A stretch of 23,913 bases of DNA from a virus. The position numbers were made by a program, and so were the translations under genes. Position 1 is the first letter of the stretch; every line of letters starts with the position of its first letter. Where the stretch lies: positions 1 to 23,913 of IMG/VR virus record IMGVR_UViG_3300032156_001655. One strand, 5' to 3'. The notes beneath the pieces are model-generated. The model saw only the letters and a program-made list of their open reading frames with translations, was not told the DNA's origin and did not search any database. Of the stretch, positions 1 through 22,006 are shown in pieces.

Positions 1-1058
1 CAACAATCTCCCTTTGGAACCCATGGAACCTCTTCTACACTACGGGTCTTAATCCAATTGTCTATCCGTTTTTGCCCCCCTCTTTTCCCTCGAATGTTAA
101 GAACGTAATCACAAGGGCTATTAGGGAACCATGGAGCATCTTTCATCTCACCAGTAACGAAATAAGTATAATTGTATTTGAGCCAGTTGTTGAAGTTCTC
201 ATTGATCGTATCTATTCCACAACAACATCGGCTATCACTCAATTCATGCCAATCATTATCTCCTACCCCCACAGGAACAGGTGAGGCTGATTTAATTAAT
301 CTTATGTTACTTAGTTTTTCCAAATGGTCTAACTCCAAGTTCCGCATGTTTTGATCCATACGGTAGTAATGACTCAAAGCTGTTTTGAAATACCGGAAGG
401 TCTTGGGGTCATCAACCGACAATTTCAAATGCTCCACCGTAATGTAATTAACATCCTTGCCAATTGCCTGAACCAATTCTAATGCTTCTTTTAAATCTAT
501 TAGGGGTTGTAAACGCAAGCTCACCCAGAACCCCCTTTTCTTTAAATCCCGAATGACATTCATACGTTGTTTTGGAGATGGGGTTTTACTTTCGTATAGT
601 CGGATAAAGGGCTCATTTGGACTAATGAGACTTATTTGGAAGGCATGAATTTTTGGGTCAAATAATTCCCAGTAGTCTTCAGGAAAGGAAGCACACTTGG
701 TAGAAATCAAAACAGGATAGTTGTATTTCTTTGTGAGTTTTAAAAATCGGTAAGTCAAACGATGTTTCCATTCTCTGAGTTGAAACGGATCAGACATCCC
801 GCCCAGATGTAACGGGACACGATGGCGGATGAGTTCATAGTCTAAGTTGTTTGGGCCTTTGTCTGATTCCAAAGCACTCAAGAATGTTTTCTCTACTATC
901 TTAAAATCTGCAATATCTACAGATTGTTTGAAATTTCCTTTTCTGGAATTAGCAAAACAATAGATACACCCAAAGTCACAGCCCTTATACATATCTGCTC
1001 TGAAGGCATTTCCACAAAACCGAAATTGTTGGGTTAAGGCTATGGGATATCTATACAT
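1..1058 (-). CDS. Radical SAM protein, SPL-like (3' end cut by window edge)
   Basis: A long open frame starts at the ATG at 1058 and is still open at base 1, giving about 352 visible codons, so the C-terminus is missing. The N-terminus has the radical-SAM cluster motif C27-DFG-C31-IY-C34 followed by F, which binds a 4Fe-4S cluster and S-adenosylmethionine in this superfamily. A later STKCA segment resembles the TK-containing strand of spore photoproduct lyase relatives. Near residues 278-280 there is a run of three cysteines followed by GID, matching CC(G/E) clusters in the radical-SAM proteins at 2222-3625 and 3877-4953. The start lies inside the last codons of the upstream gene (8-nt overlap), which suggests translational coupling. 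Substrate is unknown; DNA or nucleotide chemistry is only an inference from the SPL-like fold. The radical-SAM assignment is firm, the subfamily less so. Confidence 0.88.
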   Translation of the reverse strand, partial: MYRYPIALTQQFRFCGNAFRADMYKGCDFGCIYCFANSRKGNFKQSVDIADFKIVEKTFLSALESDKGPNNLDYELIRHRVPLHLGGMSDPFQLREWKHRLTYRFLKLTKKYNYPVLISTKCASFPEDYWELFDPKIHAFQISLISPNEPFIRLYESKTPSPKQRMNVIRDLKKRGFWVSLRLQPLIDLKEALELVQAIGKDVNYITVEHLKLSVDDPKTFRYFKTALSHYYRMDQNMRNLELDHLEKLSNIRLIKSASPVPVGVGDNDWHELSDSRCCCGIDTINENFNNWLKYNYTYFVTGEMKDAPWFPNSPCDYVLNIRGKRGGQKRIDNWIKTRSVEEVPWVPKGDC

Positions 1059-1530
1059 TCAACTCCTCATCAAAAAACCCACCCAACGGTGGTGGATTAA
1101 TGATATATTTATTTCCCTTCAAAAACCATTCCATCCCCTTCTTTACAATTACATCTTCAAAAACATACTCATATTCTCTAACTCCATCAGTCAACCGATA
1201 CACAAGACCCAAAGCCCTTAGTTGCCCAATGGAATGGCAAACCGAAGTTCGATCAAATGGAATGTTTAGAAGTTTCTCTTTTCGGATGTCCTCTATCAAA
1301 TCCGTTACCATAAAATGTCTTGTCTTATTACAATCAAATCTCTTTCGACAAGCCTTCCAAACAGCAAAATGAATTGGGGCAGTCAAATTATAGCCCTTTC
1401 GAGCAATCATTATATCATCTGATCCAAATCCAAAACAGGATTGCCGGTCATATTGGTTAAGAACCCACTCAGAATATTCGCCAGCCAGTTCACAAATTTC
1501 TAATGGGACATTTAACGACCATCTTTCCAT
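1051..1530 (-). CDS. Hypothetical protein, possible winged-helix DNA-binding
   Basis: This 159-residue protein starts at an ATG preceded by a strong GAGGGGG ribosome-binding site. I do not recognise the family. Residues from about 60 to 125 alternate helices and then a short hairpin (SVCHSIGQLRALGLVYRL, then REYEYVF), which is the usual look of a winged-helix DNA-binding domain. The N-terminal third contains an aromatic, acidic stretch without a known motif. It is the first gene after a repeated TCCTGTATAT motif and overlaps the following radical-SAM gene by 8 nt, so the two are probably translated together. A regulator or DNA-targeting partner of the radical-SAM enzyme is possible but not shown. 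Confidence 0.75.
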   Translation of the reverse strand: MERWSLNVPLEICELAGEYSEWVLNQYDRQSCFGFGSDDIMIARKGYNLTAPIHFAVWKACRKRFDCNKTRHFMVTDLIEDIRKEKLLNIPFDRTSVCHSIGQLRALGLVYRLTDGVREYEYVFEDVIVKKGMEWFLKGNKYIINPPPLGGFFDEELNV

Positions 1531-1560
1531 TTCATCCCCCTCTTTTTCTCTTTTTCTATT

Positions 1561-1586
1561 CCTATATACAGGATATACAGGAAAAC
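1561..1586 (-). promoter_or_regulatory. Doublet of TCCTGTATAT motif, candidate promoter or operator
   Basis: Read on the minus strand, two copies of TCCTGTATAT lie in direct tandem, 9 nt apart, about 40 nt upstream of the ATG at 1530. The same core recurs upstream of other gene groups (near 5750, 14965 and 16905). A TAGACA hexamer sits upstream of the doublet, but a convincing -10 box at the right spacing is not clear. It could be a phage promoter or a regulator site. Confidence 0.45.
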
Positions 1587-1636
1587 ATGTCTACGGCACG
1601 GAAAACTGGGTAAAACAACTATGTTTAAGACCTATT

Positions 1637-2221
1637 CTACCCCAAATTAATGATGCTCTTTAATAATTCACCTTTGGTCGGTAAATAATCTCTATACCTA
1701 ATAAATTTCCAACCTTCTTTCTCCAAATTTTGTTGCCTTTTGTTATCTTTCTTTTCATCCTGATGCCAATAAGAACCATCATACTCAATAGCTATCTTTT
1801 GGCATGGAATGGCTATGTCTATGGAGTAGTTTTTGCAGGGATAATTTAATTTGACTCCAAGTAAAATGCTTTTGGTTAGATTATAAAGTTGGAGTTGTGG
1901 TTTGGAAGGAGATTTATTAAAAGAGAGAGCATGAGATGCCCCACCACTTTTCATTCTTTGAATTTGATTGGGGCACTTCATAGGATTGTTATTCCCATGC
2001 ATATGGGGATAGACTTTTCCAAGATTTTTTCCTAAATTATTAATTGATATTTTCAATCTAACTTCAAGACGTTTAGAAGAATTATTTTCTCCCGTCATAC
2101 CGGCTCTAAATTTTGGATTTTTCCATTGCCTAATAGTTGCAGCCCGAATTTTGGCTTGAACCTCTGGGCGTTTAGACGGGCTATGGCTTTTCATCCACAG
2201 ACTATGTAGTGGGTGTTTCAT
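1637..2221 (-). CDS. VSR-like (PD-D/ExK/EDxHD) homing endonuclease
   Basis: This 194-residue protein has two parts. The basic N-terminal half contains NUMOD3-like DNA-binding repeats (SKRPEVQAKIRAA, KNPKFRAGMTGENN). The C-terminal half (about 125-194) has the core of very-short-patch-repair-type nucleases: YSIDIAIP, then IAIEYDGSYWHQ, then GWKFIRYRD. The conserved D, E, D and H residues fit catalysis. Such proteins act as free-standing homing endonucleases. It starts at the base directly after the stop of the upstream radical-SAM gene, so it looks inserted into that operon without breaking a reading frame. Its neighbours are not homing genes, and other homing genes in this window belong to the HNH family, so it was acquired separately. 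Confidence 0.85.
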   Translation of the reverse strand: MKHPLHSLWMKSHSPSKRPEVQAKIRAATIRQWKNPKFRAGMTGENNSSKRLEVRLKISINNLGKNLGKVYPHMHGNNNPMKCPNQIQRMKSGGASHALSFNKSPSKPQLQLYNLTKSILLGVKLNYPCKNYSIDIAIPCQKIAIEYDGSYWHQDEKKDNKRQQNLEKEGWKFIRYRDYLPTKGELLKSIINLG

Positions 2222-3625
2222 CTATTGGGTCCTTATTAATCCTTCTAATAATTCTTCTCTGAAATCTTCTTCTTTTTTAAACGCCCAAATCTTTCTTCCA
2301 CATTTATCTACTCCATATGGAACAATTCCCTGAGCCCAATCTACAGAATAAGCAAGATTTCCAGATAAATTCCAAGAATCGAAAACAATTTTCCTAATTC
2401 CCTCCCCCAACCATCCTCCATTCTCTTCTACATGTTCTTCAAACATCTCCCAAGTTGTGGGGTTTCCATTTTGTTTACAAATGAATCTAATGGCCATTAT
2501 ATTATTTCCATAACTAAAATTTTCAAATATATCCTCACATTCACAACAAACGTTTTGAGAATTTGAAGAAGAGCAACCAAAATCGAAAGTAGAACAAGAC
2601 AATCCATTCTCCCTAAGATATTCTATAAACTTACTTAACAAAAGACTTCCCAACCATTGGGAGTCAGACATTAGGAGAAACATCCGTTCAAAGTCCACCC
2701 CTTCCATTTCCATTTGCCTTTTTATACCTGGGGATGTGGCTGACCAGCTATAGGTGTCTAAGGTAACGTGGTTGACCCCAGCCCACTTGACCGCAGAAAT
2801 CCAATCATCAACCTTCCCACGATCATCGTTAATAAAAATCATAAAGGGTTCAATCCTTGCTACCACCCTCACCCCAGCCTCAGAAAGAAACTTTGCAGCC
2901 GTTATCCTTTCCATAAAAGGTGGGGCTGCAGGTTCTAACAACTTGTTCAAATTATCGTCTGAAGAAATTACAGTGATGTGCACAGCTGACCCACCCTCAT
3001 TATCAGCTAACACTCTCACATAGTCTTCGTTCCCAATAAGAGAGGATTTAGTGTTTACCATTATTGGATAGGATTCATCCTTCAGATAGGATAGAAAATC
3101 ATAACTTACACGTTTTCTATTTTCGATAGGTAAAAAGTCCTCAAACCTTATGCCCAACCGTATAGGAATTTGTATTGCTATGGCTCTTTGTAGCTCTGAG
3201 CCTTTGGCCCTTGTGCCCCTGTGTTTCATAAGTTTGTCCATCTCTGAACGAAAGAAGGAAGGGTTGCAAGTTCGCATTCCCAAATTTTTAGAATTATCAA
3301 AAAAGGAAGTATAAAGAGATGCACGAAATGAATCAGCAAAACAATATCTGCAACCATAAGGGCAACGGACTGCGTCGTAGGTATCTGAATTTAGAGGCAT
3401 GGGGCAATGAGCAGCCCTTAATGAGACTTCCAAAAATGAATTAATCTCATCTTTGTTGAGCAGACGTTGGTGGACTTCCATTTGGCCTGTGTCTAAATTA
3501 AACTGGGTGTAATTGATCTTTCGTCCCTTTTCCTTTACCAACCCCAAATGCTTTTCCAAGTCCTCCAACTTACTTCGTCTGGGGATTAGGTCTTTGATGA
3601 TTGATCTGATTTCCCAGTAGTTCAT
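2222..3625 (-). CDS. Radical SAM protein, SPL-like
   Basis: This 467-residue protein has the radical-SAM motif C88-PYG-C92-RY-C95-F and an N-terminal extension of about 80 residues before it. Downstream features include VNTKSSL (residues 190-196), matching the TK-containing segment of spore photoproduct lyase relatives, and RIEPFMIF near 258. A second cysteine group lies at C344, C351, C360, C361 and C363, compatible with an auxiliary metal or Fe-S site. The same region of the two other radical-SAM proteins here has CCCG or CCG. Its start overlaps the end of the small zinc protein by 4 nt (ATGA). The reaction is not known. The SPL family repairs or modifies DNA, so a nucleic-acid substrate is a reasonable guess only. 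Confidence 0.88.
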   Translation of the reverse strand: MNYWEIRSIIKDLIPRRSKLEDLEKHLGLVKEKGRKINYTQFNLDTGQMEVHQRLLNKDEINSFLEVSLRAAHCPMPLNSDTYDAVRCPYGCRYCFADSFRASLYTSFFDNSKNLGMRTCNPSFFRSEMDKLMKHRGTRAKGSELQRAIAIQIPIRLGIRFEDFLPIENRKRVSYDFLSYLKDESYPIMVNTKSSLIGNEDYVRVLADNEGGSAVHITVISSDDNLNKLLEPAAPPFMERITAAKFLSEAGVRVVARIEPFMIFINDDRGKVDDWISAVKWAGVNHVTLDTYSWSATSPGIKRQMEMEGVDFERMFLLMSDSQWLGSLLLSKFIEYLRENGLSCSTFDFGCSSSNSQNVCCECEDIFENFSYGNNIMAIRFICKQNGNPTTWEMFEEHVEENGGWLGEGIRKIVFDSWNLSGNLAYSVDWAQGIVPYGVDKCGRKIWAFKKEEDFREELLEGLIRTQ

Positions 3626-3777
3626 TTGATTTCCTTTTCTTTAAACTCATGACAATCACACAAGGTGCAATGACATATCATCTCTTTAGTCTTTTCATCT
3701 TGGGCTGTTACATGACTTACCTTTTTATGTCCACATTGGCAAGTCTTATAGTCACTCATCCAATTTCCTTTGTCCAT
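3622..3777 (-). CDS. Small zinc-ribbon-like protein
   Basis: This 51-residue protein carries a CxCGH...H half followed by CHCTLCDCHEF, a pattern typical of small zinc-binding proteins found in phages and archaea. I chose the ATG at 3777 because GGGGGGTGAT sits just upstream. An in-frame upstream ATG at 3837 would add 20 residues but lacks that site. The gene overlaps the following radical-SAM gene by 4 nt and lies between two radical-SAM genes, so it may be an accessory or a nucleic-acid adaptor for them. No enzymatic motif is visible. Confidence 0.75.
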   Translation of the reverse strand: MDKGNWMSDYKTCQCGHKKVSHVTAQDEKTKEMICHCTLCDCHEFKEKEIK

Positions 3778-3876
3778 TATATCACCCCCCTCGAATTGAT
3801 TCAATCCTTCTCTCTTCTTAACCCTTCTACATGGCATTAGAATAACAGCCCTTTCTTTTCGGAAATGGATTTTTGA

Positions 3877-4953
3877 TCAATCCCATTTGATATCATTAAT
3901 TGAAAAAAGGTCTTTATTATTTTCAAACATCAGTCTCTTTCCCAATTCAAAGTTCCCCACCCCATCCCAAGTAGATTTCAAAATGTTTTCTTTAAGATTA
4001 TTTATTTTATGTTTATCACTTATATGATTCAATCCCTCTTTGATCCATTTTTTCCAAGTTATTAAGTTAAAACTGCACGGATTATTTACATTAATCCCAC
4101 AACAAGTATTACTTGATTCCATATAACTTCCAGAATTGATAAAATCGGGGCAACCTAAAATCATATCATATTTCTTGGCTATTTCAATCATCTCTCTCAG
4201 AAGGGGTTTCCAATATAAATCAGAATTGTAAATCCATATTTTCTCAAAGTCTAATCCCTTTTCCCAAAATCTTTTTATTACAAACTCATTTAAGTGAAGA
4301 TTATAAATGTTATAACTTTTGACCCCGTTACTTTTGATAATTCTTAAAGTTCTTTCAAATTGTTTAACAGTATGATAGCCTGGAATAAAAGGCTCCCCTG
4401 TAACACCCACATTTATTCCTTCTTTTATTAAAAGGGAAAGGTGTTGAATTCTTTTTTCTGGAGAAGTAGTTAGTCGTCCTTCAAACACCTCCCAATCACT
4501 CATGAATCCTGGGGAGATATTAATTAAAACAAAGAGGTTTTTGTTTCTTTTAAGAATTCCTAAATATTCCATCATTAATTCGGAGCATTTCGTCTCTATT
4601 ACTACAGACCATTCCATCTCAGCTAAGATTTCTAAAGCCTGTTTAGAGACTCGAAATACTGACTCTGCGGGCTGGAATGGTTCTGACTTGTTTCCAAATT
4701 TAATAGTTTTCTTTTGTTTTAAGGCTTGTGCTATTGGGCTTTTAGGATTGGAATTTCTTAGGCCATTTGTTAGGGTTCTTTCAAAATTTTCCAAATCCAT
4801 AGGTCGTAATTCTTTATCCCAAATCTTATTCAATCTTCTAAGAAAACAATAAACACAATCTATTTTACAATTGGAATAACTATCCAAACAAAATGAAAGG
4901 GGGCAATATTGCATGTCTCCTCTTAGATGAAGTGAAGATTTAAAAAGTTTCAT
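3877..4953 (-). CDS. Radical SAM protein, SPL-like
   Basis: This 358-residue protein has the radical-SAM motif C29-KID-C33-VY-C36-F near its N-terminus, then VIETKCSE (about 118-125), the TK-containing segment seen in SPL relatives, and GEPFIPGYH near 186. The C-terminal part has C268, then NTCCG with C284 and C285, and C293, parallel to the cysteine cluster of the two other radical-SAM proteins here. I chose the ATG at 4953, with AGGA in front. A GTG at 4986 would extend it by 11 residues but lies in the arm of an 18-bp inverted repeat. The third copy of the family in 5 kb, it is clearly diverged, so it probably has a distinct substrate rather than being a recent duplicate. Confidence 0.88.
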   Translation of the reverse strand: MKLFKSSLHLRGDMQYCPLSFCLDSYSNCKIDCVYCFLRRLNKIWDKELRPMDLENFERTLTNGLRNSNPKSPIAQALKQKKTIKFGNKSEPFQPAESVFRVSKQALEILAEMEWSVVIETKCSELMMEYLGILKRNKNLFVLINISPGFMSDWEVFEGRLTTSPEKRIQHLSLLIKEGINVGVTGEPFIPGYHTVKQFERTLRIIKSNGVKSYNIYNLHLNEFVIKRFWEKGLDFEKIWIYNSDLYWKPLLREMIEIAKKYDMILGCPDFINSGSYMESSNTCCGINVNNPCSFNLITWKKWIKEGLNHISDKHKINNLKENILKSTWDGVGNFELGKRLMFENNKDLFSINDIKWD

Positions 4954-5055: not shown

Positions 5056-5604
5056 TCAGATTCGTTTATACTTATCTTCGTTGATCTCAAGAACCCCCAT
5101 GGCAGAAAGAGCAGGAAGAATTTTGTTGACCTGAGCCCTTGACTCTTTTTCATTGCTTTGGCCCCCCTTTTCAACATAAAGAGCGTCGGACTTTTGGATC
5201 AATTCACTTACCAATCCGGCCTTCGTTTTCTTCAAAACCTCCCCCACCGCCTCACACCGACTGAACTCTTTTTTGTTGGTCTCTTTTTTCACCTTGATTT
5301 TGGGGATTTTGGCCACGATGGCGGGCTTTGTGGCTTTGGCCGCAAGTTTTGGGGCAGTGGTCTCCACAACAGGCTCGACATCCTGATCAAGCCCCAAAGT
5401 CTTGACGATTTCGTTGTAAGCGTTGATAACGACTGCGTCCAGGCCTTCCTGATCTTTTTCGGGAACTGCCTCCACGGCTTTGATGAAAGCAGGGATGAGG
5501 CTTTCTTTAGCTACTTTCTCTGCATTCTTGATCCCTATGAGCTTGCTGGCCTGGATCAATGTGGATTGATTAATCTTCTTCAATAACTTTGGATCGAACT
5601 TCAT
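5056..5604 (-). CDS. Winged-helix-like protein, paralogue of the protein at 21302-21901
   Basis: This 182-residue protein has a helical N-terminal domain (1-75), an Ala/Lys/Pro-rich linker (about 80-110) and a C-terminal domain (115-182). The C-terminal domain aligns by eye with the end of the 199-residue protein encoded at 21302-21901: both have VG(E/D), DELI- or SELI-like segments, KxDAxxVxxGGxSNxKE, QVxK and MG(V/L). The ending looks like a winged helix. It has a strong AGGAGGAC ribosome-binding site in a leader related to those at 19.7 and 21.9 kb, suggesting gene and leader were duplicated together or share control. Function is unknown; a DNA-binding structural or regulatory protein is likely from composition. 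Confidence 0.8.
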   Translation of the reverse strand: MKFDPKLLKKINQSTLIQASKLIGIKNAEKVAKESLIPAFIKAVEAVPEKDQEGLDAVVINAYNEIVKTLGLDQDVEPVVETTAPKLAAKATKPAIVAKIPKIKVKKETNKKEFSRCEAVGEVLKKTKAGLVSELIQKSDALYVEKGGQSNEKESRAQVNKILPALSAMGVLEINEDKYKRI

Positions 5605-5791: not shown

Positions 5792-7078
5792 TTAATCAAT
5801 CCTCCCAAGTTTCCCTAAATATCTGGGTAACAATTCAGTATAAGTCCATTCAGAGCTAATGTTTCCAATTTGGATTTGCTCACGTGGGAACTGATTTAAA
5901 AGAGCATCCACCACGTATTCACAAAACTCCATTGGCCCCGTTAGCAGGTTAGCTCGCTTTCTTAAATTAGTCATTGATGATACGAGAAGATTGGAACCTT
6001 TGATGAACTTGTTAATTTCAACTTGGTTAAAAATTTTGGGTTGACCTAACAAAACTTTGTCCGTATAGAATTGTTGTAACCAAATGGTCAACTGAGGATT
6101 CAACTCTTTCTCTTTAGGGACAGTGTTCTTTAAGAGAATGGGCGGATTGTTTAAACATTCTAAAAACATGCTTGGAATATAAGAAGAATATGTATTCCAA
6201 AAGAAGGTTGTAAGATTTACGCTTTTGAGCGTGGATTTGTTAGCTGGAGAATAGTCTGGATTGGTAAAGCGTATTTTAAATCCATCAATAGCTCTAATAA
6301 TATCCTCTACAGAATAAGAAGGCCAAGCCTGTAAAAACTTTCCATCTACAACCTCACCTATTATTTTGAGGATTTGTAGGAATGTTTTAGATGGAAGTTG
6401 GCTATTGCTATTAGGAATATGATGTCGGGGCAACCCTGGGCTGTTATTCCAATAGGAGATTATAGACATCACATCTTTACGATAGGTGTGATGTTTGGTT
6501 TGGAATTCAATAGGATTGGGATTTTTCCTAATCAATAGAGAGGGAGTTTTGTTGTATGTTACGTTTTGCTCTTCGCAAAACGTATCAGACATTCCGTAAG
6601 GAATGTCTTTATTCTCTTTAGTCTTATTATCTTTAGTCTTATTATAAGGTTGAAGGGGTTTTACCCTCATTGTTGAGGGGATATTCCCCTCATTGTTGAG
6701 GGGAATATCCCTTGTTTCATTGTTTAAATCCGAATCCTCATAAATCATTTCCTGTATCTTTTCATAATTAATTCGATAATGATTGATAGGTGGTAGACCT
6801 ATTTTTCTTACTTGTATTATTTTGAGTTCCTTGAGTTGTTTAATGGCTGAACGTTGTTGGTCTTCGGTGAGTCCCACGTTGAATTCAATTAACTTTCTGG
6901 ACATAAAGAATTCTTCATTCTCTTTTATTTGATCTTTTTCTATTAAATGGAGATGCCATTCTATCAAAGCACTTAAATAAACACTATTGGTTAGTCCAAA
7001 GTGTTTTAGGAATGATTTGGGAACTTTTAAATACCATTTAGACAACCAAATCCATCTAACTTTAGTTTCCATTTCCAT
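5792..7078 (-). CDS. Replication initiator-like protein with N-terminal winged helix
   Basis: This 428-residue protein begins with a winged-helix-like domain of about 110 residues (helical segment SVYLSALIEWHLHLI, then TEDQQRSAIKQLKELKIIQVRKIG). This resembles the N-termini of phage replisome organiser and plasmid initiator proteins. A low-complexity Asn/Lys/Thr linker (about 115-180) follows, and a helical C-terminal domain completes it. It lies immediately upstream of the left module and 30 nt after the DnaB-type helicase gene, the usual position of an initiator or helicase loader. The linker is encoded by DNA full of tandem and inverted repeats (6561-6715), as in lambda O, where the origin lies inside the initiator gene. 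The role is inferred from fold appearance and position; I see no catalytic motif. Confidence 0.65.
   Translation of the reverse strand: MEMETKVRWIWLSKWYLKVPKSFLKHFGLTNSVYLSALIEWHLHLIEKDQIKENEEFFMSRKLIEFNVGLTEDQQRSAIKQLKELKIIQVRKIGLPPINHYRINYEKIQEMIYEDSDLNNETRDIPLNNEGNIPSTMRVKPLQPYNKTKDNKTKENKDIPYGMSDTFCEEQNVTYNKTPSLLIRKNPNPIEFQTKHHTYRKDVMSIISYWNNSPGLPRHHIPNSNSQLPSKTFLQILKIIGEVVDGKFLQAWPSYSVEDIIRAIDGFKIRFTNPDYSPANKSTLKSVNLTTFFWNTYSSYIPSMFLECLNNPPILLKNTVPKEKELNPQLTIWLQQFYTDKVLLGQPKIFNQVEINKFIKGSNLLVSSMTNLRKRANLLTGPMEFCEYVVDALLNQFPREQIQIGNISSEWTYTELLPRYLGKLGRID
6561..6715. repeat. Clustered hairpins and tandem repeats, candidate replication origin
   Basis: Within 155 bp of the initiator gene there are four ordered elements. 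First is a 9-bp perfect hairpin (6561-6569/6575-6583, ACGTTTTGC). Second is an 8-bp perfect hairpin with GTAA loop (6588-6595/6600-6607, GACATTCC). Third is a perfect tandem 15-mer (6615-6629 and 6630-6644, TCTTTAGTCTTATTA). Fourth are two copies of the self-complementary unit CCCTCA-TTGT-TGAGGGG, 23 bp apart (from 6664 and 6687), separated by ATATT. Repeats next to an AT-rich stretch inside an initiator gene are the classic layout of an iteron origin. Origin activity itself is inferred. Confidence 0.6.
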
Positions 7079-7108: not shown

Positions 7109-9865
7109 CTAATCTTTTTGATATTCATAATAAATAATTTCACTGTCTAAAATGGGTTGTCCTATATCGAAGTGTTGTAGAGCCATGAGTTGCTGACGCT
7201 TGTTAAATCGTCTCCAACGGTGTTCCAGTATTCCAATGCGCCAAACCCCCCGTTCCTTCTCTTTGGCGGTCTGGTTGAGGGCAAGCCAAATGTCTGCGTG
7301 GGCTAACTTACGAGCCTCCTCTGCTATATCTTTTTCGCTTAACACTTCCTTTTCTGTAGAACCACGGTTGCCTTGACTCCCCGAAACAACCAAACACGAC
7401 CTCTCATATGCCATCCCTTTCAGGCGTTTCCATATCTCATCTATTTGATGTCTAACATCTTTGTGCTTGGTTTCTGGAGCTAAAATATCGGCATAGTCTA
7501 TGATAATTACATCTGGAATAAATCCCTCTTGAGTCTCTAATCTTTCTAAATCCTCTTCTACATCGGTCAAGGTGGCAGAGAAGGCAGGGTAACTAATCAA
7601 CCGAAACAGATTTGGGCCAACCATCTTTTGGAGTTTTAATAACTCTTTACGGACATTCTTACGAGTTAGGGCTGGATGCTTTTGTAACTGGAACCAAGTG
7701 GTTGGAGCAAAGTCCTCTTCTATTCCTTTAACCCCACGACAAGCGGTGCAAGGTTTGTATGTTTGATTATGTTTGAATTTGTCAGGTCTGGGTTCTTTAC
7801 TTACCCGTGTGGACTTACCGCAAGAGTTGTCTTGATTACTACAACAATCGAAACAGGGCACTTCATGAACCTTTTCAAACTCTCCAAGTTGTCCAATCTG
7901 AGAATAGAGTCTTACGGATTGGTGTTCGTCTGCCATTTCCAAAGATGCGAAGGCCACTCGTTTGCGGGACAACACAGCATCGAAGCCTATGTCTTGTAAA
8001 TCCCATGTGTTGTGGACAACTATATCATTTGCTACAAAATTGTGGGTTTTTTTAATTGTTAAATCAAAAGTGGGGATTTTTTTCCCTGAATTTACTTTTT
8101 TCACTTTATCCCAAAGGACATCTGAGTTTACTATCTGAAATGCTTGTTTATTATTTATAATAGAGGCTATTTTTTTAGCGGAATTTATGTTAAGACTTTG
8201 GTTTAGTCTAATACACTGGTTTAAAAGTCCTAATGACGTTTGATTCCACCAATCTCGGTTCTTTCTTACTTTTATGGTTTGTCTAAGTTTTTTTACAATT
8301 GGGGGAGGAAGGCTGTCTAAAAAACCTCTATTATCTCTCATTGGTTCTAATATGGAAAGAAATGAAAGAGCTTTGTCTTGTTTATGGAAACGGAATCCTA
8401 TTTGTTTGATAAAAGATGTTACTTTTTCTTTATCTCTAATAGTCCAGTCATACTTTCTACTTATCTTTCCCTTTATACCAAATCTTAAAAGAAGATTGGA
8501 TACTTGATAAATCATATCTTTACTTGCGGAGGAATAGCTCACTTCAACTCCATGATTGGTTTTATAGATTGTTCCATCACAAGTAAACATTGTAGATAGG
8601 AATAATTTTAAATTTTCTTTGGTTAATTCAAATACAATGTCTGGTATTTGTTTTTCTTTACTTCGGACTCTTTTTAAATTAATATTCCTAAACCAAATAG
8701 AAGTTTTAGACATTCCTAAGACAGCAGGTTCAGTTGGCATAACATGAACTGTTATTTTATCCCAAGGATTTACTCTTACATCGTCTCCAAGTTTTTGAAT
8801 AGAGTCTTTGAAATCTTTTTGTATTTTTTTGTCTATATTAGTAAAATTCATATTTCCAATACTTCCCTCTGCTAACATATAAGCTAAAACTTTTATTTTG
8901 TAATCTTCTAATTGTTTGTTTCCGAAATATGGAATGGTTTTGGGAATAGCTACAAAATCTCCTTCTTTTATTTTTGAAAGATGTTTCCATCCATTTGGGG
9001 TTAAAAAAGAATCGTTCCATGTGGCAGTGATTTCCCCTCCAGTTCTTGTTATCATTGTTCCAACTTCTTTTATTCCGTTTTTATGATATTTTACAATTTT
9101 TCCTATTCCTAATTTTCCATTTGGGAGAAGAGTTATTACTTCAGGGTCTTTGTCTTCTATAACCTTTTTTATAGGTTTAAGTTTTCCGTTTGGAAGTTGA
9201 ATCAAAGAATCTCCAGCAATACATTTACCCCGTTTGAATGGTCCCATCACTCCTATAAGCCATTTTCTGTATAATGGCCCAACCAACTCCCCCAACTTAC
9301 CTTTAAATTCCATCAGAGGGTTTTCCTTCTCATCAAAAACCATGTTAAGATACTTAACATCATCCAAAGGCTTAACCCAACGGTATTCAGCTTCTTGAAT
9401 AATTCTCTTACCCCCCTCAGCTAACTGTTCAGCCTTATCTACTTCTCCCGTTTCTAAAAGGGCAGACACATCCCCAACCATCCGTTTCAGGTGGCGTTCC
9501 TTTAAATATTGTAATCCACGATCTATTACAAACTGTTCATTAATACCTTCTGGCCCAGATTCATTCAAATACTCTTCAGAGAGCTTGGCTAAAAATAATT
9601 CTAATTCTTCAACAATAGCGGGTCGGAGTTTTTGTTTGGCTGTTAGGAATAGGTCTTTAATGTGAGATTTGGGAGCTTGTTTGTATTTGGTATGATAGTC
9701 CAAGAGCCATTTGGCTATCTCTTTGGACAGGTCTAATTCCAAAATGTTGGGTTGTAGGAAGGGTTTGAGCTTTTCTAAGACTTTATCTGAAACGATTAGA
9801 CCAGTGATGATTCGTTTTTCCACATCACGGTCTACGCTTTGTAACCGTTTTAGTAAAGGACTCAT
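7109..9865 (-). CDS. dnaB: DnaB-type replicative helicase containing an intein
   Basis: This 918-codon gene encodes a hexameric replicative DNA helicase interrupted by a 405-residue intein (residues 215-619). Spliced, the helicase would be 513 residues. The N-extein (1-214) has the helical DnaB N-terminal domain and ends in the Walker A residues GPFKRGK; the C-extein begins with the Walker A Thr (620). Walker B is PDVIIIDYAD (about 784-793), followed by SGSQGNR and HRWRRFNKRQQ, which fit motifs H3/H4 and the arginine finger region. Between Walker A and B, residues 671-709 carry six cysteines (C671, C674, C675, C682, C706, C709), a putative zinc-binding insertion not typical of DnaB. There is no clear ribosome-binding site: the ATG lies one base after the stop of the HNH gene, so translation is probably coupled. 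Confidence 0.93.
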   Translation of the reverse strand: MSPLLKRLQSVDRDVEKRIITGLIVSDKVLEKLKPFLQPNILELDLSKEIAKWLLDYHTKYKQAPKSHIKDLFLTAKQKLRPAIVEELELFLAKLSEEYLNESGPEGINEQFVIDRGLQYLKERHLKRMVGDVSALLETGEVDKAEQLAEGGKRIIQEAEYRWVKPLDDVKYLNMVFDEKENPLMEFKGKLGELVGPLYRKWLIGVMGPFKRGKCIAGDSLIQLPNGKLKPIKKVIEDKDPEVITLLPNGKLGIGKIVKYHKNGIKEVGTMITRTGGEITATWNDSFLTPNGWKHLSKIKEGDFVAIPKTIPYFGNKQLEDYKIKVLAYMLAEGSIGNMNFTNIDKKIQKDFKDSIQKLGDDVRVNPWDKITVHVMPTEPAVLGMSKTSIWFRNINLKRVRSKEKQIPDIVFELTKENLKLFLSTMFTCDGTIYKTNHGVEVSYSSASKDMIYQVSNLLLRFGIKGKISRKYDWTIRDKEKVTSFIKQIGFRFHKQDKALSFLSILEPMRDNRGFLDSLPPPIVKKLRQTIKVRKNRDWWNQTSLGLLNQCIRLNQSLNINSAKKIASIINNKQAFQIVNSDVLWDKVKKVNSGKKIPTFDLTIKKTHNFVANDIVVHNTWDLQDIGFDAVLSRKRVAFASLEMADEHQSVRLYSQIGQLGEFEKVHEVPCFDCCSNQDNSCGKSTRVSKEPRPDKFKHNQTYKPCTACRGVKGIEEDFAPTTWFQLQKHPALTRKNVRKELLKLQKMVGPNLFRLISYPAFSATLTDVEEDLERLETQEGFIPDVIIIDYADILAPETKHKDVRHQIDEIWKRLKGMAYERSCLVVSGSQGNRGSTEKEVLSEKDIAEEARKLAHADIWLALNQTAKEKERGVWRIGILEHRWRRFNKRQQLMALQHFDIGQPILDSEIIYYEYQKD
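8009..9223 (-). mobile_element. LAGLIDADG intein in the DnaB Walker A motif
   Basis: The insert begins with the nucleophile in CIAGDSLIQLPNG (splicing block A) and ends KKTHNFVANDIVVHN followed by Thr (blocks F and G with the terminal His-Asn). The insertion splits GPFKRGK and T of the P-loop, a known hot spot for inteins in helicases and recombinases. The middle contains the two LAGLIDADG helices, LAYMLAEGSIG (about residue 113 of the intein) and LKLFLSTMFTCDGTIYK (about 205). It is therefore a full-length intein with a probably active homing endonuclease. Length is 405 residues. The boundaries are exact to the codon from the family rules. Confidence 0.93.
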
Positions 9866-9866
9866 A

Positions 9867-10331
9867 TTAATATTTACCCCAAATGATTCTTTTGTAAAAT
9901 CTTTTCCATTCTTTTCTATTGATATTAGCTCTGGAATTACAAGATTTACACAGGGTAATTAAATTAAATTGGGAACAATCTTGTTTATCATAATTAATGT
10001 GATGAATTTCTAACAGTTTTGTTTTATAGTTACAATAAGGATTTTGGCATTCTTTATTATCCCTATTTTTTATGGATTGTCTGAGTTTTTCTGTCCACTC
10101 TGACGAATAAGGAAGAAAAGAAGCCCCACCTTTCCAATTCCAATGATTTTTTCCACTTGTTTTTAATACATGTATTCCTTTTCTTGATTTGGAAATTCTT
10201 TTTTTGGTTTCTTCAGATAAATGTTTTCCTTTATTCCTGTTCGATAGTTTGCGTTTTGTTGAAGAAGACATGGATTTACCTTTCCAGTTCGGATTGTTCT
10301 TCTTCACATTGTAATGATAGCCCTTGGGCAT
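9867..10331 (-). CDS. HNH homing endonuclease with NUMOD3 repeats
   Basis: This 154-residue protein has NUMOD3-type repeats at the N-terminus (KKNNPNWKGKSMSSSTKRK, HLSEETKKRISKSRKG) and a C-terminal HNH nuclease domain (about 67-154). The zinc-binding cysteines are in CQNPYC and LCKSC, and the catalytic HH in LEIHHINYD. Its C-terminal 88 residues match those of the HNH protein at 11485-12156 at roughly 54 positions by eye, including the closing (I/V)W(G/S)KY. It ends one base before the dnaB start. Both related genes abut or overlap the start codon of a core replication gene, which suggests homing into these junctions. A typical AAGGA site precedes the ATG. Confidence 0.9.
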   Translation of the reverse strand: MPKGYHYNVKKNNPNWKGKSMSSSTKRKLSNRNKGKHLSEETKKRISKSRKGIHVLKTSGKNHWNWKGGASFLPYSSEWTEKLRQSIKNRDNKECQNPYCNYKTKLLEIHHINYDKQDCSQFNLITLCKSCNSRANINRKEWKRFYKRIIWGKY

Positions 10332-10365: not shown

Positions 10366-10557
10366 TCAGGATAATTTTTTACTTAATAGTTCATCATCAA
10401 ATCTTTTAGAATTCAAAAATCGCAATTCATTTAAACAAATGGGACAAACTTTGATCTTTTCCCCAAGAAAATATATTTCAAAACTCCCAAGGTCTATCGT
10501 TTTTGTTTCACTATTTATTGGGGTCATACTTGCAATTCCACATCGTTCACATTTCAT
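10366..10557 (-). CDS. Small zinc-binding protein
   Basis: This 63-residue protein has a CERC pair at residues 3-6 and a CPIC pair at 38-41, a four-cysteine zinc ribbon separated by a beta-rich segment (SFEIYFLGEKIKV). The start overlaps the stop of the primase gene (ATGA), so it is translated with it. It lies between primase and helicase genes, so a replisome accessory is possible, but no family was recognised. After it the operon continues with an HNH endonuclease gene. Confidence 0.8.
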   Translation of the reverse strand: MKCERCGIASMTPINSETKTIDLGSFEIYFLGEKIKVCPICLNELRFLNSKRFDDELLSKKLS

Positions 10558-11492
10558 TTTATCAGCCCCCTAATCAATTCTTTTCCTTCTTCCAAAGTTA
10601 GTTCTCCAGGGTCTTTCTTATCATCTAAATATAAATTTTCTGTATCACAAAACCAGATTGCCTTACTTAATCGTTTGGCACTCTCTTGAGCAATCTCCTC
10701 ACTATCGAACAGGGTGTAAACCTTTTTGGGTTGAAGGGAGCGTAACAAAGCCACCTGTTCCATAGTCCAACCTGTGCCCCAAGTAGCCAGCGATCCTCGA
10801 CCCAGTTTCCACTGGTCTATTGGCCCCTCAACCAATATCACTGTGCTACTTGGGAGCACATCGTCATATCCATAAAGAGTATGTTTAATTGGAACGATCT
10901 CATCCTTTGGATTACAGGCTATATAAGGTTTTGAAGTCTTTCCAGTTACGTCACGTGTCATAAAAGTTATGAGTCGGCGTTGGATATAAACTGGAAAAAG
11001 AATACGAAACTTATATTCAACTCCCCAAAAGCCTGAATAGTAAATTTCCCTCTCTTTTGGTGTTTGGTATGGATCAAACCCACGGACAGTTAAAAATCTA
11101 TTTAGATGATAATGACTAAACGGTTTGCCTTCACCCACCCTTTTAAATTCTTTAGGTATCTTTACTTCTCCAGCTGGAATCCGTTCAGGAACGAAAAACC
11201 TTTCTGGCTTATTATAATTCTGAAACTTTTCCATTACGGCTAAAGCCCCAGACCAATTACAATCTTCAATCAATTGAACTAACTTAACTATATTCTTACC
11301 CCCGCATCGCCAACAGTTCAGAGCATTATTTTCCAGATTGATTCCCAGGTGCTTGTTATTATCATTACAAAATATACAATCTATGTTTATCCAATCTGGG
11401 CCACTGGTATTTGACCCTTCTGTAGCATAAGAAATATGTTTATGATCTAAATAAGATTTAACATCAAAAAAGTTTATAATTGGATTATTCAT
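10554..11492 (-). CDS. DnaG-like primase with zinc ribbon and Toprim domain
   Basis: This 312-residue protein starts at the ATG at 11492, preceded by TTGGAG. An upstream in-frame ATG at 11534 would add 14 residues inside the HNH gene. The N-terminal zinc-binding domain has C39-x2-C42 and C60-x2-C63 with intervening strands, like the CHC2-type ribbon that recognises template DNA. The C-terminal half has a Toprim core: VILVEGPIDQWKL (catalytic Glu and Asp) and VYTLFDSEE in the position of the DxD motif, where the second Asp is replaced by Glu. It would make RNA primers for the DnaB-type helicase encoded downstream. The start overlaps the upstream HNH gene by 8 nt. Confidence 0.88.
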   Translation of the reverse strand: MNNPIINFFDVKSYLDHKHISYATEGSNTSGPDWINIDCIFCNDNNKHLGINLENNALNCWRCGGKNIVKLVQLIEDCNWSGALAVMEKFQNYNKPERFFVPERIPAGEVKIPKEFKRVGEGKPFSHYHLNRFLTVRGFDPYQTPKEREIYYSGFWGVEYKFRILFPVYIQRRLITFMTRDVTGKTSKPYIACNPKDEIVPIKHTLYGYDDVLPSSTVILVEGPIDQWKLGRGSLATWGTGWTMEQVALLRSLQPKKVYTLFDSEEIAQESAKRLSKAIWFCDTENLYLDDKKDPGELTLEEGKELIRGLIK

Positions 11493-12156
11493 ACTTACTC
11501 CAAACAATCTTCTTATAGAAATGCCTCCATTCATTCCTATTGGCGTTCGCCTTACTATGACATCGGCTACATAAGGAAATTAGATTAAATTGAGAACAGT
11601 TTTCTTTGTCATAGTCAATATGGTGAACATCTAACTTCCTTGCCCGATGATCACAATAAGGATTTTGACATTCATTATTGTCTCTATCTTTTATAGATTG
11701 TTTAAGTCTATTATTGAAGGTTGTGGGATACGGAAGAAAAGAAATTCCACCTTTCCAATTTGGGTTTTTTTCCATTGGAGAACCAAATCTTCTTCTTTCT
11801 TTTTCGGAATAGATTCTTTTATAGTTTGGATTTTTATCTCCCCTTTTGGTAAGGGCTATTTTTTCTTTTGTTTTTTCAGATAAAGGTTTTCCTAAGTGAG
11901 AATATTTAAACTTTTTTGACGCAGAAAAAGAATTTTTATAATTTGGATTCTTTTCTCCAATTTTTGATTCCTTCATTTTTCTTTTTGTATCTTCTGAATG
12001 TTTCTTTCCCAAATGGGAAGAGGACATTTTTCTTTTGACTTTAGTTGTAAACTTTTTCCCTTTATTTTGGTGTCCTTTTACGAAGAATTCCCCAGGTTTT
12101 GGTTTTAAACCACAACCACATTTGCAAGTTCTCCGAATTAGGGTTTGCTCATTCAT
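11485..12156 (-). CDS. HNH homing endonuclease with multiple NUMOD3 repeats
   Basis: This 223-residue protein opens with a CKCGCGLKPKPGEFFVKGHQNKGK segment in which paired cysteines suggest a small zinc knuckle. At least three NUMOD3-like repeats follow (HLGKKHSEDTKRKM, HLGKPLSEKTKEKI, GDKNPNYKR). The C-terminal HNH domain has CQNPYC, DVHHIDYD and LCSRC. The last 88 residues are paralogous to the HNH protein at 9867-10331. Its stop overlaps the primase start, mirroring how the other copy meets dnaB. The N-terminal repeats differ in number, so the two have diverged mainly in their DNA-recognition part. Confidence 0.9.
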   Translation of the reverse strand: MNEQTLIRRTCKCGCGLKPKPGEFFVKGHQNKGKKFTTKVKRKMSSSHLGKKHSEDTKRKMKESKIGEKNPNYKNSFSASKKFKYSHLGKPLSEKTKEKIALTKRGDKNPNYKRIYSEKERRRFGSPMEKNPNWKGGISFLPYPTTFNNRLKQSIKDRDNNECQNPYCDHRARKLDVHHIDYDKENCSQFNLISLCSRCHSKANANRNEWRHFYKKIVWSKYE

Positions 12157-17609: not shown

Positions 17610-18899
17610 TCAAACGTCAGTCATTTGTATAACCTCACCAAATGGTGGTTTGAACGAATGTTTGTTATTAATAACCCAGAGGACAGGGAATGAACAAAAG
17701 GATGGGAAGCTTGAGCAATAACCATCTGTCAACACTATAACGCAAACAGGGGACAATTGGCTCTCTTCCATCTTACTAAATGCGGGCTTGTAGTCTGTGT
17801 CTCCACCCAAATCTCCAAAGTTCAAACTTTTGATTTGTTCTCTGTCCATAACCTCTATAGGATTTGTAGCTTTGGTATCAAAGAATATGACTTGTAGAGT
17901 TGCCCCAGCATAGGCTTCAACAATTCCCAAACCTTCTGTAACCAGTTCCCTCAGTTGTGCATCAGACACACTTCCAGAAGCATCAATCAAGAGAACAACC
18001 TCACCCAACTCAGTGCTCCGAATTTCAGGCAAATACAATCCTTGTGTGATATACCTTTTGTTTGGCCTCCTCCAGCTGAAATCGTTGCGAGCATATACTT
18101 CAGCAAATTCATTCAGCCATGATCTCCAGTCCATTTTAGGTTCAAGCAACTCCCCCACTATCCTCTTCAATCCGCCAGGAGTGTTACCTGCCTTCTCAGA
18201 TGCTTGTAATGCTTTTCTTACTTCAGCCTTGGCCTCCTGTTCCATTTCCTGTTGGTCAATATCTGTGGGTGGAATAACGCCACCACATCCACCTGGATCA
18301 TCCCCAAATATGGGTTGTTTATCCTCTGGCTTGTCTGGCTTGCCCTTTTCTGTGCCTTCTGGCTGTTGGTTTGGCCCATTTCCTTGTGCGGTGTTACTCT
18401 CTATGTCCTCTTCCTTTTCCACACCTTCCTTCTGTTGTTTTTGGGCATCCTGCTGGGTTTTTTTCGCATTTCTCAGAAGATTATACACTTTTTCCAGTTC
18501 CATGTCCCTAAATTGTGAATCCAAGAGGATGCCTTTGGGTGGTTTGCCTATGTTAGCATCGTAGAGAATTTGATTGCCCACATAGTCTGCTGACTTATTA
18601 AACAGGGACAAATCCACATCCCCATATCTTTTCATATCCGCCAATCGTATGTGATGAAGCAATCCTTTATGAATTCCTGCTTCATGAGCAAGCACAAATT
18701 CTGCTTCAGGGACAGATAGTTGTTCCACAAAATCCCTGTGCCAATATATCCTCTTTCCATCAGTGGCCATGGTGCCTAAACTATATTGGCCAGTTTTATC
18801 CTCTACCAGATCCATTCCCATACAGAGGATGCCCCAATATGGGCAATCCTCTGTAAGCAAACGGGCACGTGCTTTGGTTAGTATGACCTCTGCCTTCAT
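17610..18899 (-). CDS. Metallopeptidase-like/VWA-like domain protein (DUF2201 type)
   Basis: This 429-residue protein has the two-part layout of the metallopeptidase-like plus VWA-like proteins. The N-terminal domain (1-145) contains FVLAHEAGIHKGLLHH (68-83): H72-E73 with further His residues at 77, 82 and 83, so the spacing is HExxxH rather than the usual HExxH. A Gln/Lys/Asp-rich linker follows (145-220). The C-terminal VWA domain has a MIDAS site: DASGS (306-310), Thr in GGDTDY (368) and D392 in LTDGY. Partner genes upstream encode a DUF3150-like protein and a MoxR ATPase, with a 4-nt overlap to the former. MoxR-VWA pairs act in metal or cofactor insertion and complex remodelling in bacteria; the phage role is unknown. 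Confidence 0.85.
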   Translation of the reverse strand: MKAEVILTKARARLLTEDCPYWGILCMGMDLVEDKTGQYSLGTMATDGKRIYWHRDFVEQLSVPEAEFVLAHEAGIHKGLLHHIRLADMKRYGDVDLSLFNKSADYVGNQILYDANIGKPPKGILLDSQFRDMELEKVYNLLRNAKKTQQDAQKQQKEGVEKEEDIESNTAQGNGPNQQPEGTEKGKPDKPEDKQPIFGDDPGGCGGVIPPTDIDQQEMEQEAKAEVRKALQASEKAGNTPGGLKRIVGELLEPKMDWRSWLNEFAEVYARNDFSWRRPNKRYITQGLYLPEIRSTELGEVVLLIDASGSVSDAQLRELVTEGLGIVEAYAGATLQVIFFDTKATNPIEVMDREQIKSLNFGDLGGDTDYKPAFSKMEESQLSPVCVIVLTDGYCSSFPSFCSFPVLWVINNKHSFKPPFGEVIQMTDV

Positions 18900-19735
18900 A
18901 ACAACTCCTCCACTTCCTTCAGAATTTCACCTGCCAAATCTGCTGTGGCTTCTCTGAACTCTGGAAATTTTCTCAGGTCATCGGTATCCAAATTGGCCAA
19001 TTCCTCTTCAGTTATGCGGGTCAATTCAGCCAATTTTTCATCCCCAGCAAAATTGAGTTTGGGCAGGATTTGTACCAGCTCAGCAATATTCTTGACCATG
19101 CTGTTGTGGAACTTCCCATCTGGGTCGGATAGTCTATCATACATGTGTTTGATAACATCGTGCAATCTCTGATACAAATCTCTGGAAGCATCCGCAAGAA
19201 TAGAGTTCAAATGATCATTAAACTGGGATTTGATTTCATCCACTTCAGAGGATTGGAGATTGATCCTAAAATCACCAACTGTGGGGACAGGCAAGAAAAA
19301 GATTTCAAACGTGAACTTGCCTTTCAACTCCTGCAGGTTTGGATAGTCCGAAGGATTGAACAAAGTTTTGAGCCTGTCTCTCTCTTTGACAATCTGATCA
19401 TCATACTTACTTTCCAACTTCTCAAATGTCTCCTCAAACTTGTCCTTTATTGACCGCAGTTTTTTGATATAGTCTGCGTGCAATTCGATAGGCAAAATGC
19501 CCGTGCCGTCACTATTCCAAGGGGAGGTCAAAGTGCGGTGGATGCTTCGTGCTTGATTGCCAAGTGACTCCAGTTCCTTTAACTCAGGCAGATTGAGGAT
19601 GATCTTTCTGAATGAGCCTATGTTATGACTTTTATAAGTTTCATCTATCATCATCTCTACACTCTTGTCCTTCTTCCTTGCTTCCCAAACTCCGATTTTC
19701 AGTTTTGCCAATAATGCCTTTTCTTCAAGTTTCAT
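18896..19735 (-). CDS. DUF3150-like protein
   Basis: This 279-residue protein matches my memory of the DUF3150 family. Recognisable parts are WEARKKDKSVEMM near the start, LESLGNQARSIHRTLTSPWNSDG, LFNPSDYPNLQELKGKF, FEIFFLPVPTVGDFRI and DRLSDPDGKFHNSMVKN. It is largely helical. I use the ATG at 19735: it has AAGGAGGAC at ideal distance, inside a 33-nt leader identical to that of the gene at 21302-21901. A longer frame to 19843 only reads through that leader and the MoxR gene end. It sits between the MoxR ATPase and the VWA protein, the normal place for DUF3150 in phage cassettes, and probably bridges them. Confidence 0.85.
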   Translation of the reverse strand: MKLEEKALLAKLKIGVWEARKKDKSVEMMIDETYKSHNIGSFRKIILNLPELKELESLGNQARSIHRTLTSPWNSDGTGILPIELHADYIKKLRSIKDKFEETFEKLESKYDDQIVKERDRLKTLFNPSDYPNLQELKGKFTFEIFFLPVPTVGDFRINLQSSEVDEIKSQFNDHLNSILADASRDLYQRLHDVIKHMYDRLSDPDGKFHNSMVKNIAELVQILPKLNFAGDEKLAELTRITEEELANLDTDDLRKFPEFREATADLAGEILKEVEELL

Positions 19736-19765
19736 GGTATTGTCCTCCTTACTTTGGATTTGGTT
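19733..19765 (-). promoter_or_regulatory. Conserved 33-nt translational leader
   Basis: AACCAAATCCAAAGTAAGG followed by AGGACAATACCATG precedes the DUF3150-like gene. An identical 33-nt stretch precedes the gene at 21302-21901 (21899-21931), and a related leader precedes 5056-5604. It carries a strong ribosome-binding site and an A/C-rich upstream part that may be an enhancer of translation or a regulator site. Confidence 0.75.
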
Positions 19766-20849
19766 AGATTTGAACGTCACTATGTTTAATGCTCCATTCC
19801 ACAAACGGTTTTGTCTTTTTGATAGTTGAATCTTTGCGAGCACAATCTGTCATTAAGAACACACTCCACTCTGGAGCCAATCTACCTGCATACTTACTTA
19901 TGGCTGGGAAGGTTTTGCTGTTCACTCTGGCAACCAGGGCAGTCAATACTGACCACAAAACAGATGGGTTAGTAGGAATGTCTGCTTGCTCTGGATTAGA
20001 GAGGATAACATCAGGATGAACCAAATCCCTGTATTGAGAGAGGAATGAATAAAAGGCATTTCCCTCTTCCTCACCCACAGCACCAACAAACATTTCTCTC
20101 AAGCAATCCAGAGGATAGTTATGAGAGAGGATATCACTCATATACTCCCAAGCACGTGGTGACGGGGAACGGGTCATTTCTCTGGTAGGCCTGAAATTGG
20201 ATAGGTGATTTTTATCCTTGTCATTGTTACCGCACCATCTGTGGTAGGCTATGACCTCTGGCTTAACACGCCCAGAGAGAGTTGCCCACTCACACCAGTC
20301 TTGCCAATGGCTCTCTACATTAATCAAACTCATAAACCTATCTTTCATAGGCTCAAGAATTCCTTGAACTCCCGCATTGTCTCCACGTTTGTTGGTGCAG
20401 GCTACGAACACTACGCCATCACTAATCGTATGACCGTTGATGCGTCTGGCTCTAACTATCTGCATAAATGAAGCTTGAACCAGAGCAGGTGCTTGACCAA
20501 AATCGTCCAGCACAACTACCAATAAATAGTTAGCATTGATCATTTCCAATAAGTCACCAAAGGGCAAAAACACAGCCTCGGATTTGCCCTCTTTACTTAC
20601 AACAACAAAAGGTAATCCCTTGGCATCTGTTGGGTCAGATATAACTGCGTGGATGAAGAGGGATTTGATGGCTTTGGTTTTGATCCAGGACGGTTGTAAA
20701 ATTGTCCCATCGGCAAATCCTCTCTCTATAAAGGATACAGCCTGGTCAACTATTTCAGATTTGCCCACTCCTGGGTCACCTATAAACAGCAGACTGTCTC
20801 TGTTTAGGATTGCTTGGACTAATACTTGGCTAACTTTTTTTGTCCTCAT
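19764..20849 (-). CDS. MoxR-type AAA+ ATPase
   Basis: This 361-residue protein has the AAA+ core: Walker A GDPGVGKS (24-31), Walker B YLLVVVLDDFGQA (108-120, with Asp-Asp instead of the usual Asp-Glu), sensor 1 in VVFVACTNKRGD, and an arginine in EPMKDRFMSL. The sequence from KAIKSLFIHAVISDPTDAKGLP also fits MoxR proteins, which remodel partner complexes with a VWA protein. The DUF3150-like and VWA proteins are encoded next. GGAGGG lies before the ATG. It is likely cytoplasmic and may act on phage or host protein complexes, but no target is visible. Confidence 0.87.
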   Translation of the reverse strand: MRTKKVSQVLVQAILNRDSLLFIGDPGVGKSEIVDQAVSFIERGFADGTILQPSWIKTKAIKSLFIHAVISDPTDAKGLPFVVVSKEGKSEAVFLPFGDLLEMINANYLLVVVLDDFGQAPALVQASFMQIVRARRINGHTISDGVVFVACTNKRGDNAGVQGILEPMKDRFMSLINVESHWQDWCEWATLSGRVKPEVIAYHRWCGNNDKDKNHLSNFRPTREMTRSPSPRAWEYMSDILSHNYPLDCLREMFVGAVGEEEGNAFYSFLSQYRDLVHPDVILSNPEQADIPTNPSVLWSVLTALVARVNSKTFPAISKYAGRLAPEWSVFLMTDCARKDSTIKKTKPFVEWSIKHSDVQI

Positions 20850-21901: not shown

Positions 21902-21931
21902 GGTATTGTCCTCCTTACTTTGGATTTGGTT
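21899..21931 (-). promoter_or_regulatory. Conserved 33-nt translational leader (second copy)
   Basis: Identical over 33 nt to 19733-19765 and placed the same way in front of an ATG. The upstream continuation differs (AACCAAAAACCAAA here). It implies duplication or strong constraint on the leader. Confidence 0.75.
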
Positions 21932-22006
21932 TTTGGTTTTGGTTCGTATAGTGAACCGTACTTGCCCCTCATCAGGTATGGAGCAAACCTTCAAATTGTG
22001 CCACAT

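Follow-up and report, generated by a model that had tools for sequence, protein, structure and literature searches.

Two of the three radical-SAM genes carried by this phage DNA, A and B, apparently belong to a real, coherent and virus-only pair of radical-SAM enzymes, and the literature searched holds no description of such a phage pair. The conserved unit is A with B, not the trio of A, B and C. Hypermodification of DNA is the best-supported reading of the pair; it is unproven, and we judge its chances of being right and of being wrong to be about equal.

Radical-SAM genes of the window

The window is the whole virus record of 23,913 bases, a fragment as judged from its own gene content. The genes from the primase to C all lie on the minus strand; taken from the right-hand end leftwards, this replication block comprises a primase, DnaB, an initiation protein, a winged-helix-like protein, A, a Cys-rich protein, B, a homing endonuclease, a further winged-helix-like protein and C. 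The DNA primase (10554..11534) and the DnaB-type replicative helicase (7109..9865), which carries an intein and anchors the block, were assigned from domain matches and neighbour clustering, and the replication initiation O-like or helicase loader protein (5792..7078) from a PHROG match together with neighbour clustering. Directly upstream of A is a small protein with a winged-helix-like C-terminus (5056..5604; block gene cl4), a paralogue of which is found at 21302-22006. A itself occupies 3877..4953; its start is ATG 4953 or GTG 4986 and its end 3877, and our residue numbers follow the 358-aa form. B (467 aa; 2222..3625) has an N-terminal extension of approximately 75 residues, and C (1058-<3) is at least 352 aa long, its C-terminus being lost at the contig end.

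The initial annotation described three radical-SAM genes with CxxxCxxC followed by F, a TK segment and a C-terminal CC cluster. We confirm all three, and the cysteine positions it quoted are correct: C29xxxC33xxC36-F, TK 121-122 and CCG 284-286 in A; C88xxxC92xxC95-F, TK 192-193 and CCEC 360-363 in B; and C27xxxC31xxC34-F, TK 120-121 and CCCG 278-281 in C. A further cysteine precedes the motif in each protein (C17, C74 and C15, respectively). The three share little besides these motifs, as had also been observed, with pairwise identities of 22-24%. The Pfam Radical_SAM model matches C at 1.1e-7, and B (1.7e-5) and A (0.0028) below its cut-off; all three fall into one common PHROG, 13321, of unknown function.

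The small Cys-rich and winged-helix-like proteins said to be interleaved with these genes are present, and a DUF559/NUMOD-type homing endonuclease is there in addition. The Cys-rich, zinc-like protein (71 aa; 3622..3837) has weak PHROG matches only and no counterpart among the related loci compared. Its stop overlaps the start of B, and the winged-helix-like gene (1051..1530) similarly overlaps C; to judge from the sequence, these overlaps resemble those of a translationally coupled operon. Homologues of this winged-helix-like protein lie 3' of B in related contigs (L158, L159, L160, L214, L021, L212 and L179; best match 5e-11). The homing endonuclease (1637..2221; Pfam/PHROG-type matches to DUF559/REase_MTES_1575, NUMOD-type) is probably an insertion between B and the winged-helix-like gene, outside the system.

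The A-B pair and its replication block

A joint profile of A, B and C recovered 47 viral loci and was the sole approach that worked on viral contigs; scans of those contigs with each window protein singly found nothing. Among 50,697 phage records, tblastn picked up three from the human gut, all weak and unannotated, and sequence searches of the PDB, with C alone and with an A2 profile, returned chance matches only. A cellular origin of B was considered and rejected: a genome-assembly scan for B gave three contigs, from MAGs, each of which bears phage synteny. The radical-SAM family is thus apparently restricted to viruses. The phage group bearing the pair is little known.

In the radical-SAM tree there are five well-supported clades, A to E, and the window proteins fall inside A (27 rows, support 100/100), B (32 rows, 100/99) and C; the window's B is nearest to the B of L021, a phage of E type. 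A second scan, with B as query, gave 78 viral contigs with B, and in 69 of them the gene directly upstream on the same strand is A (57) or the replacement class E (12), while eight of the other nine have little or no upstream sequence. The order and strand of A or E and B are constant, with a gap of -13 to 3730 bases. Once near-duplicates were removed, 28 B records were left, 27 of which have A or E upstream, 27 the block gene cl2 and 24 the block gene cl6. Because all B-bearing contigs form one viral lineage, this linkage partly reflects common descent.

The conserved co-occurrence that the initial annotation asked about for all three genes therefore holds for A (or E) with B and not for the trio, which we rejected as the unit, since only A or E and B are linked in the neighbour counts. 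Few pairs have a third radical-SAM gene beside them: two records with class D, and the window with C. Orthologues of C, with 45-56% identity, are found in L008-L013, and class C is mostly solitary in other phages; the trio is therefore either an accident of the window phage, or C is an optional third step. In L008 and L009, inspection by eye places C beside DNA methyltransferase-like genes.

Around the pair, the conserved gene order is primase, initiation protein, DnaB, small winged-helix protein, A, a variable slot, B, cl2, cl6, clamp, UDG, PolA, clamp loader, cl19 and SSB. The two genes between B and the clamp, cl2 and cl6, are uncharacterised, and the window contig stops short of their expected positions. 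The second of them, cl6, resembles GNAT proteins of the DUF2156/LPG_synthase_C type, with a Pfam match of 0.0016, below the cut-off, and a match of 8.5e-4 to the structure 2hqy, which we take to be a DUF2156 protein.

The slot in or near the A-B interval holds PALP, a PLP enzyme, in 34 loci and an aldo/keto reductase in about 15, with both in one locus only. DUF362 is found in 11 of the 12 E loci, whereas none of the 57 A loci has it. An FAD oxidoreductase accompanies the aldo/keto reductase in four loci and an NAD epimerase accompanies E in five; methyltransferases and a few nucleotide enzymes also occur. In the window itself TAGT is not seen, and the A-B interval contains neither PALP nor an aldo/keto reductase nor DUF362. 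The DNA glycosyltransferase TAGT, which is TET-associated, lies in or near the block of L025, L048 and L087 (1e-43 to 1e-50; above cut-off in three of the 38 records searched), with a further BLAST match in L149 and one below cut-off in L188.

Fold and cysteine signature

Both the motif, present in 97-99% of 80 viral proteins, and the models, which match many radical-SAM structures, place these proteins in the radical-SAM superfamily. An SPL-like fold had been proposed, to be checked by AlphaFold, and SPL does rank first for both members of the pair. The AlphaFold2 model of A is confident (pLDDT 94.5) and has SPL as its top structural match (Z 18.3, rmsd 3.1, 250 aligned residues), followed by SuiB (Z 16.5, over 20-358), RlmN (16.0, residues 1-272 on 100-347), lipoyl synthase (15.8) and viperin-like enzymes (approximately 14.8). 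That of B is less so (pLDDT 84); SPL again comes first (Z 16.7, rmsd 3.4, 257 aligned), PFL activase at 15.8 being within a tie, and RlmN reaches 15.3. The match to SPL (SplB) spans the whole barrel and includes CxxxCxxC, but identity is 12%, and the phage proteins add an N-terminal Cys and a C-terminal extension with an invariant CC. In A, residues 1-270 align to SPL 65-341, and the CC (284-285) lies in the extension past the end of SPL. The phage enzymes differ further from SPL in being an obligatory pair within a replication block.

At the sequence level, the closest families are the PA0069 and Rv2578c types and TIGR04470, yet all are far below their cut-offs: the window proteins score 50-65 bits against NCBIfam PA0069 (NF033668; cut-off 360) and 37-47 bits against the Rv2578c family (NF038135; cut-off 430), and B alone matches TIGR04470 (radical SAM mobile pair B), with 23.8 bits against a cut-off of 410. 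A profile search of 299 Pseudomonadota genomes found matches in about 110, mostly of PA0069 type and limited to the barrel (approximately positions 22-227 of A2).

Among the 80 viral relatives, the N-terminal Cys is present in 95%, the radical-SAM cysteines in 97-99% and both C-terminal cysteines in 99%, so the pattern did not arise by chance. Near-invariant are the Cys before the motif, D, CxxxCxxC, G, F-E, TK, R, P, D and CC, and in a 38-protein alignment the invariant positions are, in A numbering, C17, D24, C29, C33, C36, G87, T121, P188, D270, C284 and C285. We inspected 29 cellular homologues of PA0069 type, none of which has the CC or the upstream Cys, while the CC is present in 77 of 78 phage proteins; because of this difference, the CC marks the viral family. 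As a general trait of SPL-like proteins it is rejected for the PA0069 type. The proposal of a shared C-terminal CC is thus borne out by the alignments of viral relatives and by the cellular comparison, and on the strength of these alignments we regard the CC as homologous across the viral family. For A and B, then, the cysteines are related and the genes are habitually together, which is the reverse of what the initial annotation had named as telling against it.

The location of these extra cysteines is suggestive. RlmN and lipoyl synthase each bring residues from ahead of the motif and from beyond the barrel together in the active site, where they are the methyl-Cys and resolving Cys in the former and ligands of the auxiliary cluster in the latter; in E. 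coli RlmN, these are C118, upstream of the motif, and C355, after the barrel. By analogy, the extra cysteines of A and B may also meet at the active site.

Proposed DNA hypermodification and its alternatives

With evenly balanced confidence, we propose that the two SPL-fold radical-SAM enzymes are the core of an oxygen-independent pathway of base hypermodification in genomic DNA. The substrate of A (or E) and B, acting sequentially or as partners in a complex, would be a base of the DNA or a group that the base carries. SAM would be cleaved at the [4Fe-4S] cluster of the CxxxCxxC motif of each enzyme, and the resulting 5'-deoxyadenosyl radical would take a hydrogen from, or add to, the nucleobase or attached group. 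Of the invariant extra cysteines, one precedes the motif by 11-13 residues and a neighbouring pair closely follows the barrel; all three probably come together at the mouth of the barrel, where they would either bind an auxiliary, site-differentiated Fe-S cluster or form a catalytic set like that of RlmN. Tailoring enzymes that vary from phage to phage would then complete the intermediate: PLP enzymes, aldo/keto reductases (some accompanied by an FAD oxidase), DUF362 where class E replaces A, a GNAT/DUF2156-like transferase and, in some phages, a DNA glycosyltransferase. In the window, C could be an optional third enzyme of the same chemistry. The DNA base as substrate, the order of steps, the role of the CC, the independence from oxygen and the purpose, evasion of host defence, are all parts that we infer.

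The initial annotation had raised DNA bases as a possible target, and the context does point to DNA: the pair is placed within the replication block, in a constant gene order. A few blocks also contain, or lie near, genes for enzymes that decorate DNA or act on nucleotides: TAGT as listed above, thymidylate synthase (L185) or dCMP deaminase (L146). A constant pair of radical enzymes, a transferase-like cl6 and exchangeable finishers in a replication operon are the anatomy that would be expected of genome hypermodification. Counting against hypermodification, TAGT is found in a small minority of blocks, the enzymes that characterise the known thymidine pathway are not seen in 41 records, and the window has no slot enzyme between A and B.

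The thymidine pathway of Pseudomonas phage M6, as Lee et al. are said to have described it in 2018, reportedly involves 5-hmdU, a kinase, a PPlase, transferases, a PLP enzyme and a radical-SAM isomerase. Clustered radical-SAM, PLP and transferase enzymes and variable tailoring are common to that system and ours, but here there are two obligatory SPL-fold radical-SAM enzymes inside the replication block. Thymidylate synthase is found in none of the 41 records, which are possibly fragments, with one full-length homologue in the L185 block; the ADDT/aGPT-PPlase transferase domain is likewise absent from the 41 records, a weak negative in that the control was silent too. TET-based hypermodification is similar in that TAGT is in or near the block of a few members, but the Tet_JBP oxygenase was not found in 34 records, again a weak negative with a silent control. 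Radical-SAM enzymes could supply a functionalised base without oxygen. More tentatively, and with a probability clearly below that of hypermodification as such, A and B may be the oxygen-independent counterpart of TET-based hypermodification, with an auxiliary cofactor site at the CC, direct functionalisation of the base (for example at the methyl group of thymine or at a carbon of the ring) and swappable finishers giving different new bases in each phage.

A different polymer, RNA, is an unlikely target: the pair would alter tRNA or rRNA for phage translation, or against tRNA-cleaving defences, in the manner of RlmN/Cfr. RlmN and Cfr, class A radical-SAM methyl synthases, share with the phage proteins the fold, at a Z score around 16, and a Cys before the motif and just after the barrel; the upstream Cys and post-barrel CC are topologically similar to those of RlmN. 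The C-terminal cysteines differ in spacing and number, however, and no sequence match was found; the genes are within a DNA replication block and not with tRNA genes, of which the window has none, and both TAGT and the contents of the tailoring slot suggest DNA.

Action on small molecules is equally improbable in our estimate. Instead of acting on polymeric DNA, the pair would then produce or change a small compound, such as an antiviral-like nucleotide, a modified dNTP or a precursor derived from an amino acid. The PLP enzyme, aldo/keto reductase and FAD oxidase families use small molecules, viperin-like enzymes are among the fold matches, and dCMP deaminase (in the L146 block) and thymidylate synthase occur in some blocks. 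The viperin-type matches, on the other hand, rank lower than SPL and do not stand out from many other radical-SAM enzymes, and the TAGT found in some blocks belongs to a family that works on polymeric DNA in T-even phages (PMC13390438).

DNA repair is still less probable. SPL acts on DNA thymine, and as the best fold match it would fit A, B and C being photolyase-like SPL relatives that fix UV or other lesions during phage replication, with UDG and PolA in the same block. Repair, however, has no need of an obligatory second paralogue or of swappable PLP, aldo/keto reductase, FAD and DUF362 partners; the CC is outside the SPL fold, and no SPL-named NCBIfam model matched A, B or C at E values up to 1. 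Least likely is that a phage or host protein is matured in a RiPP/SPASM-like way. The SPASM enzyme SuiB, the second fold match of A, would speak for this, but the invariant columns of the 80-protein alignment contain no SPASM-like group of seven cysteines, we recognised no small precursor gene that recurs next to the pair, and the context is one of replication.

If DNA hypermodification is correct, the pair would be a radical-based, oxygen-independent route to modified DNA, and its modular tailoring slot predicts several new nucleosides across dozens of uncultivated phages. It would also offer biotechnology new radical enzymes that act on DNA, and the conflict between phage and host a new shield or a new target. 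Regardless of the substrate, these phages carry a coherent, virus-only family of radical-SAM proteins, marked by a second cysteine site that is invariant and by a pair of genes whose conservation is strict.

Mobile elements in the window and intein-like insertions in related B genes

An intein that includes a LAGLIDADG endonuclease interrupts the DnaB helicase of the window (7109-9865), and homing endonucleases of the HNH/NUMOD/DUF559 type, three of them recognized by eye, lie at 9867-10331, 11485-12156, 1637-2221 and 22225-22572. The endonuclease at 1637-2221 starts immediately past the stop of B, the second radical-SAM gene. In several relatives, B itself appears to be interrupted: judged by eye from the ORF, an intein-like insertion is located at the first Cys of the CxxxCxxC cluster motif in L199:8887-9897 and in about eight more related loci, and in the loci with this insertion tblastn matches to B begin only at residue 88-95. 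Active sites are frequent insertion points of inteins.

Other window genes and MAG-binned relatives

The stretch 17610-20849 encodes, judged by eye, a MoxR-like ATPase paired with a DUF2201 metallopeptidase/VWA-like protein; DUF2201 is also present in the related record G031. The small winged-helix-like protein of the block occurs as two paralogues in the one phage (5056-5604 and 21302-22006).

Three contigs that had been placed in MAGs of Bacteroidota, Bacillota and Thioalkalivibrio (L085, L086 and L087) are phage contigs of the A+B lineage. This placement is probably a binning artefact, and is no proof of host.

Neighbours of the radical-SAM genes

At L008:8422-9141 and L009:5473-6213, solitary class C radical-SAM genes adjoin, as seen by eye, DNA methyltransferase-like genes, and at L012:3519-4526 such a gene adjoins a PP-loop ATPase-like gene. 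Near one block lies a further radical-SAM gene (L034:5665-6378; Radical_SAM match, 1.1e-10), QueE-like by eye, for which a 7-deazaguanine link is possible.

DUF362, a putative tailoring gene beside the conserved pair, is strictly tied to class E, the radical-SAM class that replaces A (L026, L030, L049, L021, L158 and others). This linkage may help to define the function of DUF362.
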